DNA from: Duncaniella sp.
GTDB taxonomy: Bacteria; Bacteroidota; Bacteroidia; Bacteroidales; Muribaculaceae
Reading direction: 5' to 3'
Assembly (NCBI GenBank): GCA_029056055.1
Contig: JAIDCC010000014.1
Coordinates: 1-64,000, forward strand
Length of the DNA stretch: 64,000 nt
A program made the position numbers and the translations under genes. Below, one piece after another: positions 58,266 through 64,000 of this stretch. The notes under the pieces are model-generated. The model was not told where the DNA came from. It made no database searches and was given only the letters and a program-made list of their open reading frames with translations. Position 1 is the stretch's first letter. Each line of letters opens with the position of its first letter.

Positions 58266-58688
58266 TTATTCCTGCGGGATGGAGAGGGCGCGGGTAGATT
58301 CGAGGATGGGGAGGTTGGTCTCCGTGGGGACGTAAATCACGGTTTTGTTGCTGAGGTCGGATTGCTGACGCACCCAGAGGTATTGGATGTAGGTCGGAGT
58401 GATGCTTCCGTTTTCGATGCGGATAGCTTCGGCCGCGCCTTTGGCGCGTTCGATTTCGGCCTGTGCGTTGAGCTTCTCGGCTTCGAGATTTGCTTTGGCT
58501 TCCTCGATTTTGATTTTGCGGTTTTGCTCGGCCTTGGCAAATTCGGCTTTGCCTTCCATCTCCTGCGACCAGACGTTATACCAGGGGCGGATGAAGGCCA
58601 TGGCCACGAAGAAGACGATAATTCCTGCGACGCCCATGAGAACGGGCTTGATGAGATTTGTAGGTAAGTGATTGGGGTTGTTATACAT
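58266..58688 (-). CDS. Single-TM protein with prohibitin/HflC-type C-terminal tail but no SPFH head
   Basis: TM segment then coiled coil KAEFAKAEQNRKIKIEEAKANLEAEKLNAQAEIERAKGAAEAIRI and YLWVRQQSDLSNKTVIYVPTETNLPIL. Confidence 0.6.
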   Translation of the reverse strand: MYNNPNHLPTNLIKPVLMGVAGIIVFFVAMAFIRPWYNVWSQEMEGKAEFAKAEQNRKIKIEEAKANLEAEKLNAQAEIERAKGAAEAIRIENGSITPTYIQYLWVRQQSDLSNKTVIYVPTETNLPILESTRALSIPQE

Positions 58689-58727
58689 GGTTTTGTAGGC
58701 GTTTGAAAAAGGTGAGAACAGGGGTAA

Positions 58728-60209
58728 TCAGTTCTTGACGAGCTGCACCACGATGAGGCGTCCGCCGTCGGCACCTGAAAGGAGGATTTTGCGCCCCTCG
58801 GTCAGTTCGACGTATTCGCCCACTTTGATTTGCTTCTTGGGCTGCTCGGTGACGTCCCACATGTCGGGGAGGCGGCGGTTGATGAGTATCCATTTTCCGT
58901 TGTGGAAATGGAAATCGCCCACCGGCTTCTTGTCTTCCGGCTTGATGCGCTCGTTGGGAGTGACGAAACGATTGACGTGCCACATGTAGAGCGACTGTTT
59001 GTCATAGACCATCAGGCGGTAGTTTTCAGGCAGAAACCTTCCCGCGGCGGGAGAGTAGTAGAGGTTGAGCACGGGGAGCTGTCCGTGGAACTCGGTGCCG
59101 CAGAAGGGGCATTTCGGTTTCGTGGAGTTGTCGAATACAAACCAATGCGCCTCGCACGAGGGGTTCTGACAAGGCTGCATGAGGTCGGTGGTCTTGACGA
59201 GGGCGGTTTCCCACTCGTCGGCGGTGGGACGCTTAGAGGGGTCGTGCAGACCGTCGATGAAAGCGCGGTCGAAAAGCTCTTTCAGGTAGGGACCGCAGAT
59301 GGTGTAGGGAAGTTTCTCCACGTCGCCCTGAGGCAGTTCCGAGGGGGCCATGTTCTGAATCTTGGGCCGGTTGCTCTTGTCGGTGGGATGTTCGACGAAC
59401 AGAGCCTTCTCGCCCATCGAGAGTTCTTCGTCGCGAGCCGCGTCGAGGTCGTTGACCTTGCCGCCCCGCAGCGGATGACGATAGAGCAGATACATGTAGA
59501 TGAGCACCGCGAGGGCATGGCGGTCGGTCTGGATGCTCGGCAGCTTCTTGGCGGGGTCGCCGAGTTTGAGCGCGCGCGTCTGAAGCACCTCGGGAGCTAT
59601 GAAATCGGGCGTTCCCACCACGTCGGGCGGATACTTGCCGGGCACTACGAGTCCGTCGATGTCGATGACAGCGGCGTGTCCCGTCTCGGGGTCGACGAGC
59701 ACGTTCTTGTAGGAAAGGTCGGAGTGGGCGAGCCCGGCGGCGTGCAGACGGCGCACGGCGCGCGCTATTTGCAGACACATGTGATAATGGCTCAACCATG
59801 TGCCTTTCTGGGCGGGCTGAAGAAATTTGTTGCGCAGTTTGGCCGAGGCAAACCATTTGCCCTCCTTCTCCTTGCCTTTGAACATGCCGTCCTTGAAGAA
59901 AAATTCCTTATGGTAGGCGGGGCAGACTATACCGAGTTTGCCCTCCCACTCGACGAGCTTCGTGGGCCAGCAGAAAAGGTTTTCCCAGTAGTCGCCCCCC
60001 GCCTGATTGAAAATCTTCTCGCGATAGCGTCCGACGATGTTTTCGAGGCGGTCTTTGGCGTTGGCATCCTGCTTGTTGCGGAAGAACCCCACGACGTAGC
60101 TCTTGTCGGGGCTGAAATAGACATCTTTCATCGCGCCGCTGCCGATGACTTCGTCGACGAACTCGACGGTCGAGCCGTCGGAGGCTTTGAGTTTGATAGT
60201 TTTTGCCAT
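58728..60209 (-). CDS. Ser/Thr protein kinase with zinc ribbon and FHA-like C-terminal region
   Basis: HSDLSYKNVLVDP catalytic loop, VIDIDGL (DFG equivalent), GTPDFIAPEV; CQNPSC..CPFC; beta-rich tail. Confidence 0.87.
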   Translation of the reverse strand: MAKTIKLKASDGSTVEFVDEVIGSGAMKDVYFSPDKSYVVGFFRNKQDANAKDRLENIVGRYREKIFNQAGGDYWENLFCWPTKLVEWEGKLGIVCPAYHKEFFFKDGMFKGKEKEGKWFASAKLRNKFLQPAQKGTWLSHYHMCLQIARAVRRLHAAGLAHSDLSYKNVLVDPETGHAAVIDIDGLVVPGKYPPDVVGTPDFIAPEVLQTRALKLGDPAKKLPSIQTDRHALAVLIYMYLLYRHPLRGGKVNDLDAARDEELSMGEKALFVEHPTDKSNRPKIQNMAPSELPQGDVEKLPYTICGPYLKELFDRAFIDGLHDPSKRPTADEWETALVKTTDLMQPCQNPSCEAHWFVFDNSTKPKCPFCGTEFHGQLPVLNLYYSPAAGRFLPENYRLMVYDKQSLYMWHVNRFVTPNERIKPEDKKPVGDFHFHNGKWILINRRLPDMWDVTEQPKKQIKVGEYVELTEGRKILLSGADGGRLIVVQLVKN

Positions 60210-60220
60210 GAGCGGTGTGA

Positions 60221-61669
60221 TTAGTAAAGGATTGCTATCGTGCGGTCGTCGTGGTTGCCGGGACTCCAGAAGTCGAGCCAGCGCAGGAGCTGCGTCTGCG
60301 CGGCTTCGTTATCGTCGGTGAGATCGACCCCTTCGATTTCATCTTTCGGGAAACCGTTGCGGAGGGCTGAGTAAAACTCTTCCCACTTGGCGTAGTCGTT
60401 AAGGTTTCTGTCGGTCTCGAACATCGGGTCGGAAACGCCGTCGGTCATAAGGAAGAGAGCCGTGAAGTCGTCGACGATAGACATTCTGACACGTTTCGCC
60501 ACGGCATCGGTGTCGTGGAAGATTTCGGGCATCGTCAGGAAGCGGGTCTGACCGGAAAACTCTCCTTCGTCGGGAGTGCCGAGGAGTTTGACGGTTTTAC
60601 GTTCGGCATCGAAGATAGCCATGGCCCCGTCGCCCACCCAGAACGAGGCGATGAACCAACCGAAATCGTAGCGCTTGCAGACGGCAAACATCAGCGTCGT
60701 GGCGAAATCCTTAAGCTTTGACCCCTCGCAGTTTGCCGACACGCTCTTGACAGCCTCGTGAGCCTTCATGGCACCCTTGTAGACGATGTCGATGACGCCG
60801 CGTGTGAGGGCGGTGCGTTTGGCCGTGTCTTCGCGGTCGGCGGCATAGTCGAGGATGGCTTTCTCAAACTCGGGATTGTCGACGAGCAGCGATTTGCAGT
60901 GGTCTACGACGGTCTTGCAGGCCACTTCCGAACCCTTGCGCGAATACTTCGCGCTGCCCGCGCCGTCGGCCACTGCTATGACATACCAGTCGGAGTCGGC
61001 GCAATGGAAGAGGCTGAAATGGTCGTCGCGCGGACGGCCTTCCTGCGCGTGGCTGCGGCCTCGCTGACTTGCGGCCACGATGTCTTTCCTTGGCGCGCCG
61101 TCGGCTGCGGCCTCCACTTTGATGTAGGCCGTCTCGCTGTCGGGTTTGTAGTAGGGGATGTCGGAGTGGGTGGGGACGTTGCGCCAGAGGTCGCGGGGAT
61201 TCGGATTGAACGCGATAGGAATTTTCAATTCCGATTCAGGCTCGCCTTCTACAGTCTTGAATTTCAGGATGAGCGAGAAGTCGCCGCTCGTCGTGGGGAC
61301 GCCCGCGAGAGTGCCGACACCGTCGGCTGTGACAGCGAAAGTCAGTCCGACCTTCTCGGCACCTTCGAGCTGAATATCGTAAATCTTATCGGTGGGAAGA
61401 GGGAACGAGTGGGAGTAGTCCTGCTTGACGGTGCCATTTGGGAAGCGCAGTCCGAGCTGTTTCACTTCGTTTTCTATGAGAATGCGTTGGTTCATCCGTT
61501 CTTCTTTGTATGTGTTAATGAGCGACTTAATCGCCCAACCGAGGAAGCGTTCTTTTTCGGCCGCGTCGAGGCCGGCCTCGCGCATGATGCTGTCGATGGC
61601 GCGTGCCGAGGCGTTGAGGCGCACGGTGGGACGGTTGCAGCGCGCCGAGATGCGATGTTTTCTGTCCAT
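60221..61669 (-). CDS. PP2C-family protein phosphatase with N-terminal Ig-like domain
   Basis: Q(E)GRPRDDHFSLFH, VIAVADGAGSAKYSRKGSEVA, LFLMTDGVSDPMFE; N-terminal GVGTLAGVPTTSGDFSLILKF. Confidence 0.88.
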   Translation of the reverse strand: MDRKHRISARCNRPTVRLNASARAIDSIMREAGLDAAEKERFLGWAIKSLINTYKEERMNQRILIENEVKQLGLRFPNGTVKQDYSHSFPLPTDKIYDIQLEGAEKVGLTFAVTADGVGTLAGVPTTSGDFSLILKFKTVEGEPESELKIPIAFNPNPRDLWRNVPTHSDIPYYKPDSETAYIKVEAAADGAPRKDIVAASQRGRSHAQEGRPRDDHFSLFHCADSDWYVIAVADGAGSAKYSRKGSEVACKTVVDHCKSLLVDNPEFEKAILDYAADREDTAKRTALTRGVIDIVYKGAMKAHEAVKSVSANCEGSKLKDFATTLMFAVCKRYDFGWFIASFWVGDGAMAIFDAERKTVKLLGTPDEGEFSGQTRFLTMPEIFHDTDAVAKRVRMSIVDDFTALFLMTDGVSDPMFETDRNLNDYAKWEEFYSALRNGFPKDEIEGVDLTDDNEAAQTQLLRWLDFWSPGNHDDRTIAILY

Positions 61670-61678
61670 AGTCTCAAA

Positions 61679-62734
61679 TTAGCCTAAACTTCGGGTGATG
61701 TCCATTCCTCCGGGGCCGCTCTTGGTGAGCGTGCCTTGCATTCCGCACCAGGGGCAAGTGATGTCGGGGTCTTCGCCGGCGCAGAAGATGTGGCCGCAGT
61801 CGCAGGCTACGGCGCCAATCTGATTGCCGCAGCAGGGGCAGGCGGGCACTCCGATGAGTTCGAGGGTGTTGATTTTCACGCCTTCCCCTTTCGAGAGGCT
61901 TGCGTAGGTCTCACGGTCGACGGGGTAGGCTCCGACGAGCTTGAAGTCGGTGGCATGAAAGCGCTCCATTCCTTCGAGCGGACGGCGCCGGCGATAGTAC
62001 TTTATGAGATAGTCGCCGCGGGTGTGCTGGCAGCGCGCGTGGATTACGGCAAAGTTCTCGTCGACGATGTCGTGGCCGGCGAGGCCGTCGTTGCCTACTT
62101 CGATTTTTTCAAGATTGATGCCCGAGGTCGGTGCGAGCTTCACTTCGTCGGAGGCTGTGGAGGTGACGGAGACGCTGGTGGTCTTGATTGAGGCCGTAAT
62201 CCATTTGAAGAATTTGCTGAACGACTCGGCATCAGTGTCCTTGAGCAGCAGGATGTCGTCGGTGATTTTCGATAGGGTCTTCAGATTGACGTTTTCGCCC
62301 AGCGACACGGCCACGAGGTTGCAATGCGAGCGATACTTTCTGTTCCAACGTTCGAACGCAGCGTCGCAGGAGTCGGTGGGATTTCCGTCGGTGAAGAGGA
62401 AAATCACAGGTTTCCAATCACCGCGGCTCTCGAGGGTGGTCTTGACGACGTTGCGGTCAATGTCGTTCATCAGGCAGTCGAGCGCCTCGCCGAGCGAAGT
62501 GCCGCCTCCGACGGGAAAGACTGGAGGGTAGAACTTGTAGAGTTCGGTGAGGGGCGAAAGCACTTTGGCACGCCCGGCAAATGCTATGATGGAGACGAAA
62601 ACAGTTTCGAGCGCGTAGGGGTCGACGCGCAACTCCTGAATGATGGTGCGCATGCCTTCCTGCACTTGCTCAATAGGTGTGCCCACCATTGATTCGGAAA
62701 CGTCGACGAGGAAGTAGATTGGCAGTCTTCGCAT
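61679..62734 (-). CDS. vWA (TerY-like) protein with C-terminal zinc-ribbon module
   Basis: YFLVDVSESMVGTPIEQVQEGM MIDAS (DxSxS), FLFTDGNPTD; CPCCGNQIGAVACDCGHIFCAGEDPDITCPWCG. Confidence 0.88.
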   Translation of the reverse strand: MRRLPIYFLVDVSESMVGTPIEQVQEGMRTIIQELRVDPYALETVFVSIIAFAGRAKVLSPLTELYKFYPPVFPVGGGTSLGEALDCLMNDIDRNVVKTTLESRGDWKPVIFLFTDGNPTDSCDAAFERWNRKYRSHCNLVAVSLGENVNLKTLSKITDDILLLKDTDAESFSKFFKWITASIKTTSVSVTSTASDEVKLAPTSGINLEKIEVGNDGLAGHDIVDENFAVIHARCQHTRGDYLIKYYRRRRPLEGMERFHATDFKLVGAYPVDRETYASLSKGEGVKINTLELIGVPACPCCGNQIGAVACDCGHIFCAGEDPDITCPWCGMQGTLTKSGPGGMDITRSLG

Positions 62735-62756
62735 GAAAGTCCTTGGTATTAGGGTT

Positions 62757-63401
62757 TTACGATAAGTTGGGCGGAAGGAATTTTCCGGGCGAGAGGTAGA
62801 CTGTGCCGGGGCCGGTGACGCGGAGCATGCTGAGCCCTTCGCCTCCGAGCAGATTGCCGAGCGACCAGTTTGACTGCATCTGATTTTCGGCAATGTTGAG
62901 GAGGGCGATGATGTGGTCTTCGTCTACTTCGATGGTCTCGCCGTGGCGGAGGTTGATGGTGATGGGAGTGCCCTTCGTGTCGAGAAACACCGTCGACGCC
63001 CCCTGGATTTTCTGAAGAAGCAATCCCATGCCACCCGTGAGTCCGGCAAGCGACAGTTTGGTGGTGACGTTGACGCGGTTGTTCGAGCCGATGTAGACGC
63101 CGCGGTGGCAAATCATGGTCTCGCCGTTGAGCTTGACGGGCAGAATGCCGTATTGGCTGCCGATGACCACTTTGCGTGGCTGATTGGTCACGTTGAAGAG
63201 GCGGATGATGAAGAGCGATTCGCCCGAAAGCTTCGCACCGATGATGCGTCCGAGTCCCGACCCGTTGAAAGCGAGTTCCTTCTCGACACCTGCTTCGAGA
63301 TAGATGACCGCGCCCTTCTCGACAAAGAAATTCTCGCCGGGCATGAGGGTCACCTCAAGGTGTTGGACAAATTGGCCTACAAGTTTGCAATTCATAATCA
63401 A
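62757..63401 (-). CDS. AIM24 family protein
   Basis: VTLMPGENFFVEKGAVIYLEAGVE..SLAGLTGGMGLLLQKIQGASTVFL..TGPGTVYLSPG. Confidence 0.82.
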   Translation of the reverse strand: MIMNCKLVGQFVQHLEVTLMPGENFFVEKGAVIYLEAGVEKELAFNGSGLGRIIGAKLSGESLFIIRLFNVTNQPRKVVIGSQYGILPVKLNGETMICHRGVYIGSNNRVNVTTKLSLAGLTGGMGLLLQKIQGASTVFLDTKGTPITINLRHGETIEVDEDHIIALLNIAENQMQSNWSLGNLLGGEGLSMLRVTGPGTVYLSPGKFLPPNLS

Positions 63402-64000
63402 ATAATAACATTGACCTCAGCGGGAGGGGGCGGGAGTTCGATGCCGTCGGAGGCGCCCATGCTGCGGTTGCCCTCGACGATAGTGCCCGACACCCATTTG
63501 AAAAATTGTTTGAACGCGGTGCTGTCGACCGTCTCGAGCGCCACGACATCGTCGGTCAAGGCCTTGAGCGGTTCGGTGCGCGCGCTCATTCCGGCGGCGC
63601 AAGCCACGATGCCGGCGAAATTGCGTGCCTTCACTTCGGGAATCATCTCGTTGTAGAGAAGGGTGTCGGAGGGCTTGCCGTCGGTCATGATGAAAAGCAG
63701 CGGCTTCCAGTCGCCCTTGCGGTCGGGGGTGCCTTTCTGCACCTCTTTGTCGACCATCTCGCAGAGAAGTTTGAGAGCGAGGCCCGTGTGAGTGGGACCG
63801 CTTTCGGGAGTTGTGATTTCCGGAAGCTGGAGTTCGTCGAGCGGTGTGAGAGGCAGAATCTGTTTCACTTCTCGGTCGAACGTAATGATGCTGAGACACA
63901 CGGATTCGAGGGCATACGGCTCCTGGCGAAGGCTCGAAACCATAGTCTCGAGTCCCACCTTGACCGATTCGATAGGTTCGCCACGCATCGAGCCGGAGGT
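63398..64000 (-). CDS. vWA (TerY-like) protein, 5' part beyond window edge
   Basis: Frame open to the window edge reading ..TSGSMRGEPIESVKVGLETM; LFIMTDGKPSD; ATGA overlap with AIM24 gene. Confidence 0.83.
   Translation of the reverse strand, partial: TSGSMRGEPIESVKVGLETMVSSLRQEPYALESVCLSIITFDREVKQILPLTPLDELQLPEITTPESGPTHTGLALKLLCEMVDKEVQKGTPDRKGDWKPLLFIMTDGKPSDTLLYNEMIPEVKARNFAGIVACAAGMSARTEPLKALTDDVVALETVDSTAFKQFFKWVSGTIVEGNRSMGASDGIELPPPPAEVNVII

Follow-up and report, generated by a model that had tools for sequence, protein, structure and literature searches.

Genes of the ter type are common on clinical plasmids, and their function has been puzzling for decades. An operon in a Duncaniella genome raises the question of what a ter-type phosphorylation switch may control. 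The best explanation of the whole, to which we give a probability of about one half, is a phospho-switch for Ca2+ or metal stress with calcium efflux among its outputs. The clue is a calcium pump encoded beside the operon in many relatives. This linkage suggests what the ter switch may control and, with a specific small membrane partner (here named TAIL), points to a concrete, testable output, namely cytosolic Ca2+.

An eight-gene TerY-P operon

The window, i.e. the whole stretch of 64,000 nt analysed, covers the first 64 kb of a contig 121 kb long. An earlier note, made from the sequence alone, described six consecutive minus-strand genes at 58266-64000 with overlaps or gaps of at most about 40 nt. 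All six open reading frames are found there, their domain calls match Pfam, and the measured spacing is -4 to +39 nt. The full operon comprises eight genes, in the order TerD, vWA1, vWA2, AIM24, vWA-TerY_C, PP2C, kinase and TAIL; TerD and a third vWA gene lie past the window edge on the same contig. It starts ∼1.4 kb outside the window and is preceded by a divergently oriented glycoside hydrolase gene. The first gene encodes TerD (64862-65416; Pfam 1.6e-75), as the note had guessed for the sequence beyond the edge. Pfam backs every assignment apart from TAIL.

Two short TerY proteins follow TerD: vWA1 (64148-64786), the third vWA protein of the operon and likewise outside the window, and vWA2 (63398..64000 in the window, the gene reaching contig position 64033; VWA 2.8e-13). 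The AIM24 gene (62757..63395; Pfam AIM24 1.7e-36, with an NCBIfam TIGR00266 match under its cut-off) sits between vWA genes, where the note had placed it; judging by the MNCKL start of relatives, its translation most likely begins at the ATG at 63395. The next protein (61679..62734, 351 aa) is a TerY with a C-terminal TerY_C metal-binding domain (TerY_C 2.3e-38, VWA 1.6e-13). Its conserved start MRRLP lies at 62734, and a TTG at 62893 is ruled out. The extreme C-terminus of this protein (window 61679-61702) is conserved as roughly D-[IV]-x-R-x-x-G, a pattern common to Klebsiella and Caballeronia. MIDAS-type motifs are intact in the vWA proteins (DTSGSM, DVSESM and TDGxPxD), as had been observed for two of them. 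With the PP2C phosphatase (60221..61669, 482 aa; PP2C_2 7e-41) and the kinase (58728..60209, 493 aa; Pkinase 4e-12), these proteins form the TerY-P triad that the note recognized.

Structure models show folds beyond the catalytic domains. The modelled N-terminus of the phosphatase consists of helices followed by an Ig-like domain, in agreement with the first reading of the sequence. In the kinase, the usual VAIK lysine is not evident in the sequence, and four invariant Cys after the kinase domain correspond to a Zn ribbon. The C-terminal 164 residues were modelled with a pLDDT of 81. In Foldseek, nearly all top PDB matches of this model are FHA domains, with probability near 1.00 and modest TM-scores of about 0.3-0.47 by query length. 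This supports a predicted kinase-Zn ribbon-FHA architecture, of which the phospho-threonine site is putative.

The two short vWA proteins share a C-terminal tail, LPPPPxEVN plus hydrophobic residues, with nearly all complete Bacteroidales copies. The vWA C-terminal peptide of the operon is LPPPPPEVNIVI, and that of vWA2 is LPPPPAEVNVII; the tail recurs with small changes in Klebsiella, Caballeronia and Hymenobacter. Such strong conservation at the very end of the proteins suggests that the tail is a docking peptide. Proline-rich peptides are ligands of GYF domains, and it is conceivable that the tail is bound by a GYF_2-like/PrsW membrane protein encoded by relatives. In two relatives' operons (L068:12649-13683 and L078:11763-12800), this membrane protein combines a PrsW-protease domain with a GYF_2-like match at its N-terminus that falls below the cut-off.

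Distribution and linkage to a calcium pump

Dozens of Bacteroidales genomes carry these genes in one and the same order, far beyond what chance would give, and the neighbours are conserved together. The closest relatives of the kinase are from Muribaculaceae and other Bacteroidales metagenome-assembled genomes, a kinship by which the host is most likely a species of Muribaculaceae; further ones occur in records labelled Desulfovibrio, Mailhella and Akkermansiaceae. Among 53 relatives with enough upstream sequence, PP2C is present in 53, vWA2 in 52, vWA1 in 51, a TerD in 48, vWA-TerY_C in 38 and AIM24 in 23. A YggT-like membrane protein is encoded at or beside the AIM24 slot in seven of the 53, and together with AIM24 in one. 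Optional genes of relatives encode TerB (Pfam 8e-6), a PIF1-like helicase, the GYF/PrsW membrane protease-like protein and a 466-aa protein with no Pfam match. One relative's operon carries tandem duplicated TerY-P kinases (L069:10001-12960), ∼80% and ∼70% identical to the operon kinase.

At broader scale the operon is patchy. The TerY-P kinase is found in 21/297 genomes of the family, TerY_C in 3/149 genomes of the order (two above cut-off) and TerD in 4/149, a distribution like that of accessory systems that move horizontally. A phage-like contig (IMGVR_UViG_3300045743_000462, L110:6554-10137) encodes a vWA, a vWA-TerY_C, a PP2C and, at its end, the start of a kinase; its left part looks Mu-like by eye, and TerY-P is possibly phage cargo there. 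A viral scan with vWA1 gave no matches.

The recurrent partner is a P-type ATPase. Sequence reaching 6 kb or more past the kinase is available for 54 relatives' loci; 34 of them encode the ATPase within 7 kb downstream and 20 are without it. Once kinases are clustered at 90% identity, 19 of the 24 clusters have it. The solved structures closest to it are those of plasma-membrane Ca2+ ATPases, namely plant ACA8 (4e-138) and PMCA1/2. In the present genome, the pump (81% identical, with PEGLP, VNLIMD and DKTGT intact) is encoded away from the operon on contig C65, and paralogues of TerD are found on contigs C17 (with a TerB-like neighbour) and C76, with a more distant one on C61. Parts of the system are thus kept but dispersed over contigs. 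The pump occurs in 272/297 Muribaculaceae genomes, against 21/297 for the TerY-P kinase; being present in most of the family without TerY-P, it therefore has a role of its own.

Other surroundings of these genes deserve mention. On C17 (L117:7516-9698), the TerD paralogue adjoins a 479-aa TerB-like protein from a family with no Pfam match, members of which lie between kinase and pump in relatives. On C61 (L118:5613-12631), TerD is encoded beside a 197-aa CW_7 protein and proteins of 647 and 1282 aa with no confident Pfam match, possibly a separate Ter-like system. On an IMG/VR contig (L124:6510-10256), a Ca2+ P-type ATPase gene stands at the contig end after lysis-type genes, and a TerB-like gene adjoins it on the opposite strand.

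The patchy distribution (21 of the 297 family genomes) also agrees with a different function, in which the operon would serve defence against phages or xenobiotics as a TerY-P phosphorylation module, its output not calcium and the pump only a frequent neighbour. TerY-P triads are found together with CoCoNuT/McrBC restriction systems, and modules resembling TerY-P protect against phages on their own (PMC11090510); related genes on the phage-like contig, and PIF1-like helicases and TerB-like proteins in some relatives, point the same way. Against it, the Duncaniella operon neither contains nor adjoins a nuclease, restriction or toxin gene, and the pump association is both recurrent and specific. 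PADLOC gave no TerY system match, only generic kinase matches and one weak Cas8a match to AIM24, and a known defence system is rejected on the basis of that scan. On balance we regard a defence module as rather unlikely.

TAIL, a candidate partner of the pump

The last gene of the operon encodes TAIL (58266..58688), a protein of 140 aa with one N-terminal transmembrane segment (hydropathy peak near residues 13-35), a coiled coil and a C-terminal YVPTETNLPILE stretch. It is SPFH-less, as first described, since Pfam gives no Band_7 match. TAIL matches phrog_11227 (1.8e-39) and, in its C-terminal region only, phrog_200 (1.4e-6); no PDB relative was found. Beyond the partial phrog_200 match, the coiled coil and C-terminal stretch may be prohibitin-like.

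Its position links TAIL to the pump. In six Muribaculaceae TerY-P loci (L031, L037, L041, L042, L049 and L053), TAIL lies between kinase and pump, directly before the pump. Among the 297 family genomes, 41 carry TAIL and have a listed pump position; in 18 of these, TAIL precedes the pump on the same strand at a distance of 18-94 bp, and the kinase is missing altogether from 14 of the 18. On a viral IMG/VR contig (L123:4128-7218), TAIL stands directly upstream of a Ca2+ P-type ATPase, after lysis-type genes and at the contig end. Simple co-occurrence within the family is not informative, as nearly every genome there has the pump; in the order-level sample, the pump is present in all five clear TAIL genomes. 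Homologues of TAIL also stand alone in other genomes, and those of phages are ∼41-46% identical.

That TAIL is a TerY-specific part is ruled out by the homologues that stand alone or with the pump in kinase-free genomes. The earlier note had seen in AIM24 and a membrane-anchored prohibitin-type coiled coil a variant acting on a membrane or envelope sensor. AIM24 is indeed present, but TAIL is better read as a partner of the Ca2+ pump than as a TerY-specific envelope sensor, because it lies directly upstream of the pump in many genomes without TerY-P kinase. Judged from gene neighbourhood, TAIL is a likely pump partner, and it may be a regulator of the pump. TAIL could alternatively have entered the operon through a chance rearrangement and have no role in it. 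Lone homologues and TAIL-pump pairs without TerY-P would fit such an accident, which is nevertheless unlikely given that TAIL recurs between kinase and pump at the TerY-P loci of several Muribaculaceae.

The proposed phospho-switch comes from joining the literature on TerD, Ca2+ and TerY-P with the linkage of pump and TAIL. PMC8123226 cites Pan 2011 for the binding of Ca2+ by TerD and Daigle 2015 for the effect of a TerD gene on calcium homeostasis in Streptomyces; for TerY-P, a role as a metal-sensing phosphorylation switch has been put forward (PMC11090510). In the resulting model, Ca2+-binding TerD, together with AIM24, would sense a change at the membrane. The TerY vWA proteins would be MIDAS metal-dependent scaffolds that dock through their C-terminal LPPPPxEVN, the kinase/PP2C pair would set the phosphorylation state, and the FHA-like domain would read phospho-threonine. 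One output in Bacteroidales would be control of the PMCA-type Ca2+ P-type ATPase working with TAIL; in the present genome, TAIL is encoded with the switch, and the pump and extra TerD copies lie on other contigs. Counting against the model are the pump's place outside the operon here, the 20 relatives' loci without it, its wide occurrence in genomes that have no TerY-P, the Klebsiella plasmid cluster with no such pump nearby, the modest TM-scores of the FHA-like domain and the VAIK lysine that is not evident. The sequences show gene content and order, their conservation, the pump linkage, the pairing of TAIL with the pump and, by prediction, the folds; from these we infer that Ca2+ is the signal, which way signalling runs, how the pump is affected, regulation of the pump by TAIL and docking by the C-terminal peptide.

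More tentative is a further step, in which TerY-P/TerD of Bacteroidales would form a calcium-signalling circuit running from TerD through kinase and phosphatase to the PMCA-type pump, via TAIL as a new SPFH-tail subunit, and huge gut phages would override it with their own TerD and pump. Jug phages of gut Bacteroides carry TerD and Ca2+ ATPase genes (PMC12393476). This gene content fits a conflict over host calcium control, without proving it, and offers a possible reason for gut phages carrying the two genes.

Relation to known ter and TerY-P systems

The locus corresponds to the TerY-P arm of the plasmid ter cluster in the form carried on Bacteroidales chromosomes, and its core is already known. 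For a short TerY of the operon, identity to plasmid proteins reaches 72%, with matches on >2,300 plasmids, mostly of Klebsiella and other enterobacteria. In the ter cluster of a Klebsiella IncH plasmid (NZ_CP050156; terY-CYXYW-ZABCDEF), genes for vWA, TerX, vWA, TerY_C, PP2C and kinase stand in a row, nearly the order found here. Identities are 70% for vWA1, 61% for the kinase, 53% for vWA2, 42% for TerY_C and 35% for PP2C; TerD is 57% identical to its Klebsiella counterpart, with Asp-rich blocks kept. In contrast to the plasmid, in Duncaniella TerD precedes both vWA genes, AIM24 is inserted, TAIL is at the 3′ end and no ATP-grasp/PRT nucleoside genes are present at the locus. The plasmid cluster has TerC and no Ca2+ pump nearby; the pump is found at the loci of many Bacteroidales relatives.

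This likeness bears on a third explanation, that the operon is a classical tellurite/metal-resistance arm handling another metal (Zn, Mn or a Te oxyanion) through metal binding by TerY_C and the Zn ribbon. The near-identical gene order and these metal-binding domains would suit it, as would the contribution of Klebsiella terC to tellurite and zinc resistance (PMC12054061). However, this genome has no match to TerC (PF03741), close TerC matches occur in only one of the relatives' loci and the recurrent transporter is a Ca2+-type pump. A resistance arm for another metal thus appears improbable, and the calcium-linked phospho-switch is preferred.

PMC5822837 credits Anantharaman 2012 with describing AIM24 beside TerD in group I ter clusters. 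Insofar as that citation conveys them, these clusters and the present operon both encode AIM24 beside TerD-family genes; here, AIM24 lies between two TerY genes of a TerY-P operon without TerC. The earlier note had left room for an identical, already characterized Ter/AIM24 operon. The TerY-P arm and the AIM24 arrangement were indeed known, but neither a link between a TerY-P operon and the pump nor a TAIL-pump pairing was found in the searched literature, where Anantharaman 2012 is represented by later papers; as far as that literature shows, both are new.

The triad of CoCoNuT type II/III-A (PMC11090510) has in common with the operon the vWA protein, the PP2C and the kinase with its C-terminal Zn ribbon. 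Here no McrBC-like GTPase, helicase-nuclease or coiled-coil nuclease adjoins it, and an extra FHA-like domain is predicted after the ribbon. In the TerY-P-like anti-phage module of Gao 2020, the kinase has a C-terminal OB-fold, in place of which the model here shows an FHA-like domain. Jug huge phages (PMC12393476) differ in that the genes are phage-borne, no TerY-P switch is reported and the small protein upstream of the phage pump, at 77-91 aa, is shorter than TAIL; what they have in common with the Duncaniella genome is the TerD family and the Bacteroidales Ca2+ ATPase family.
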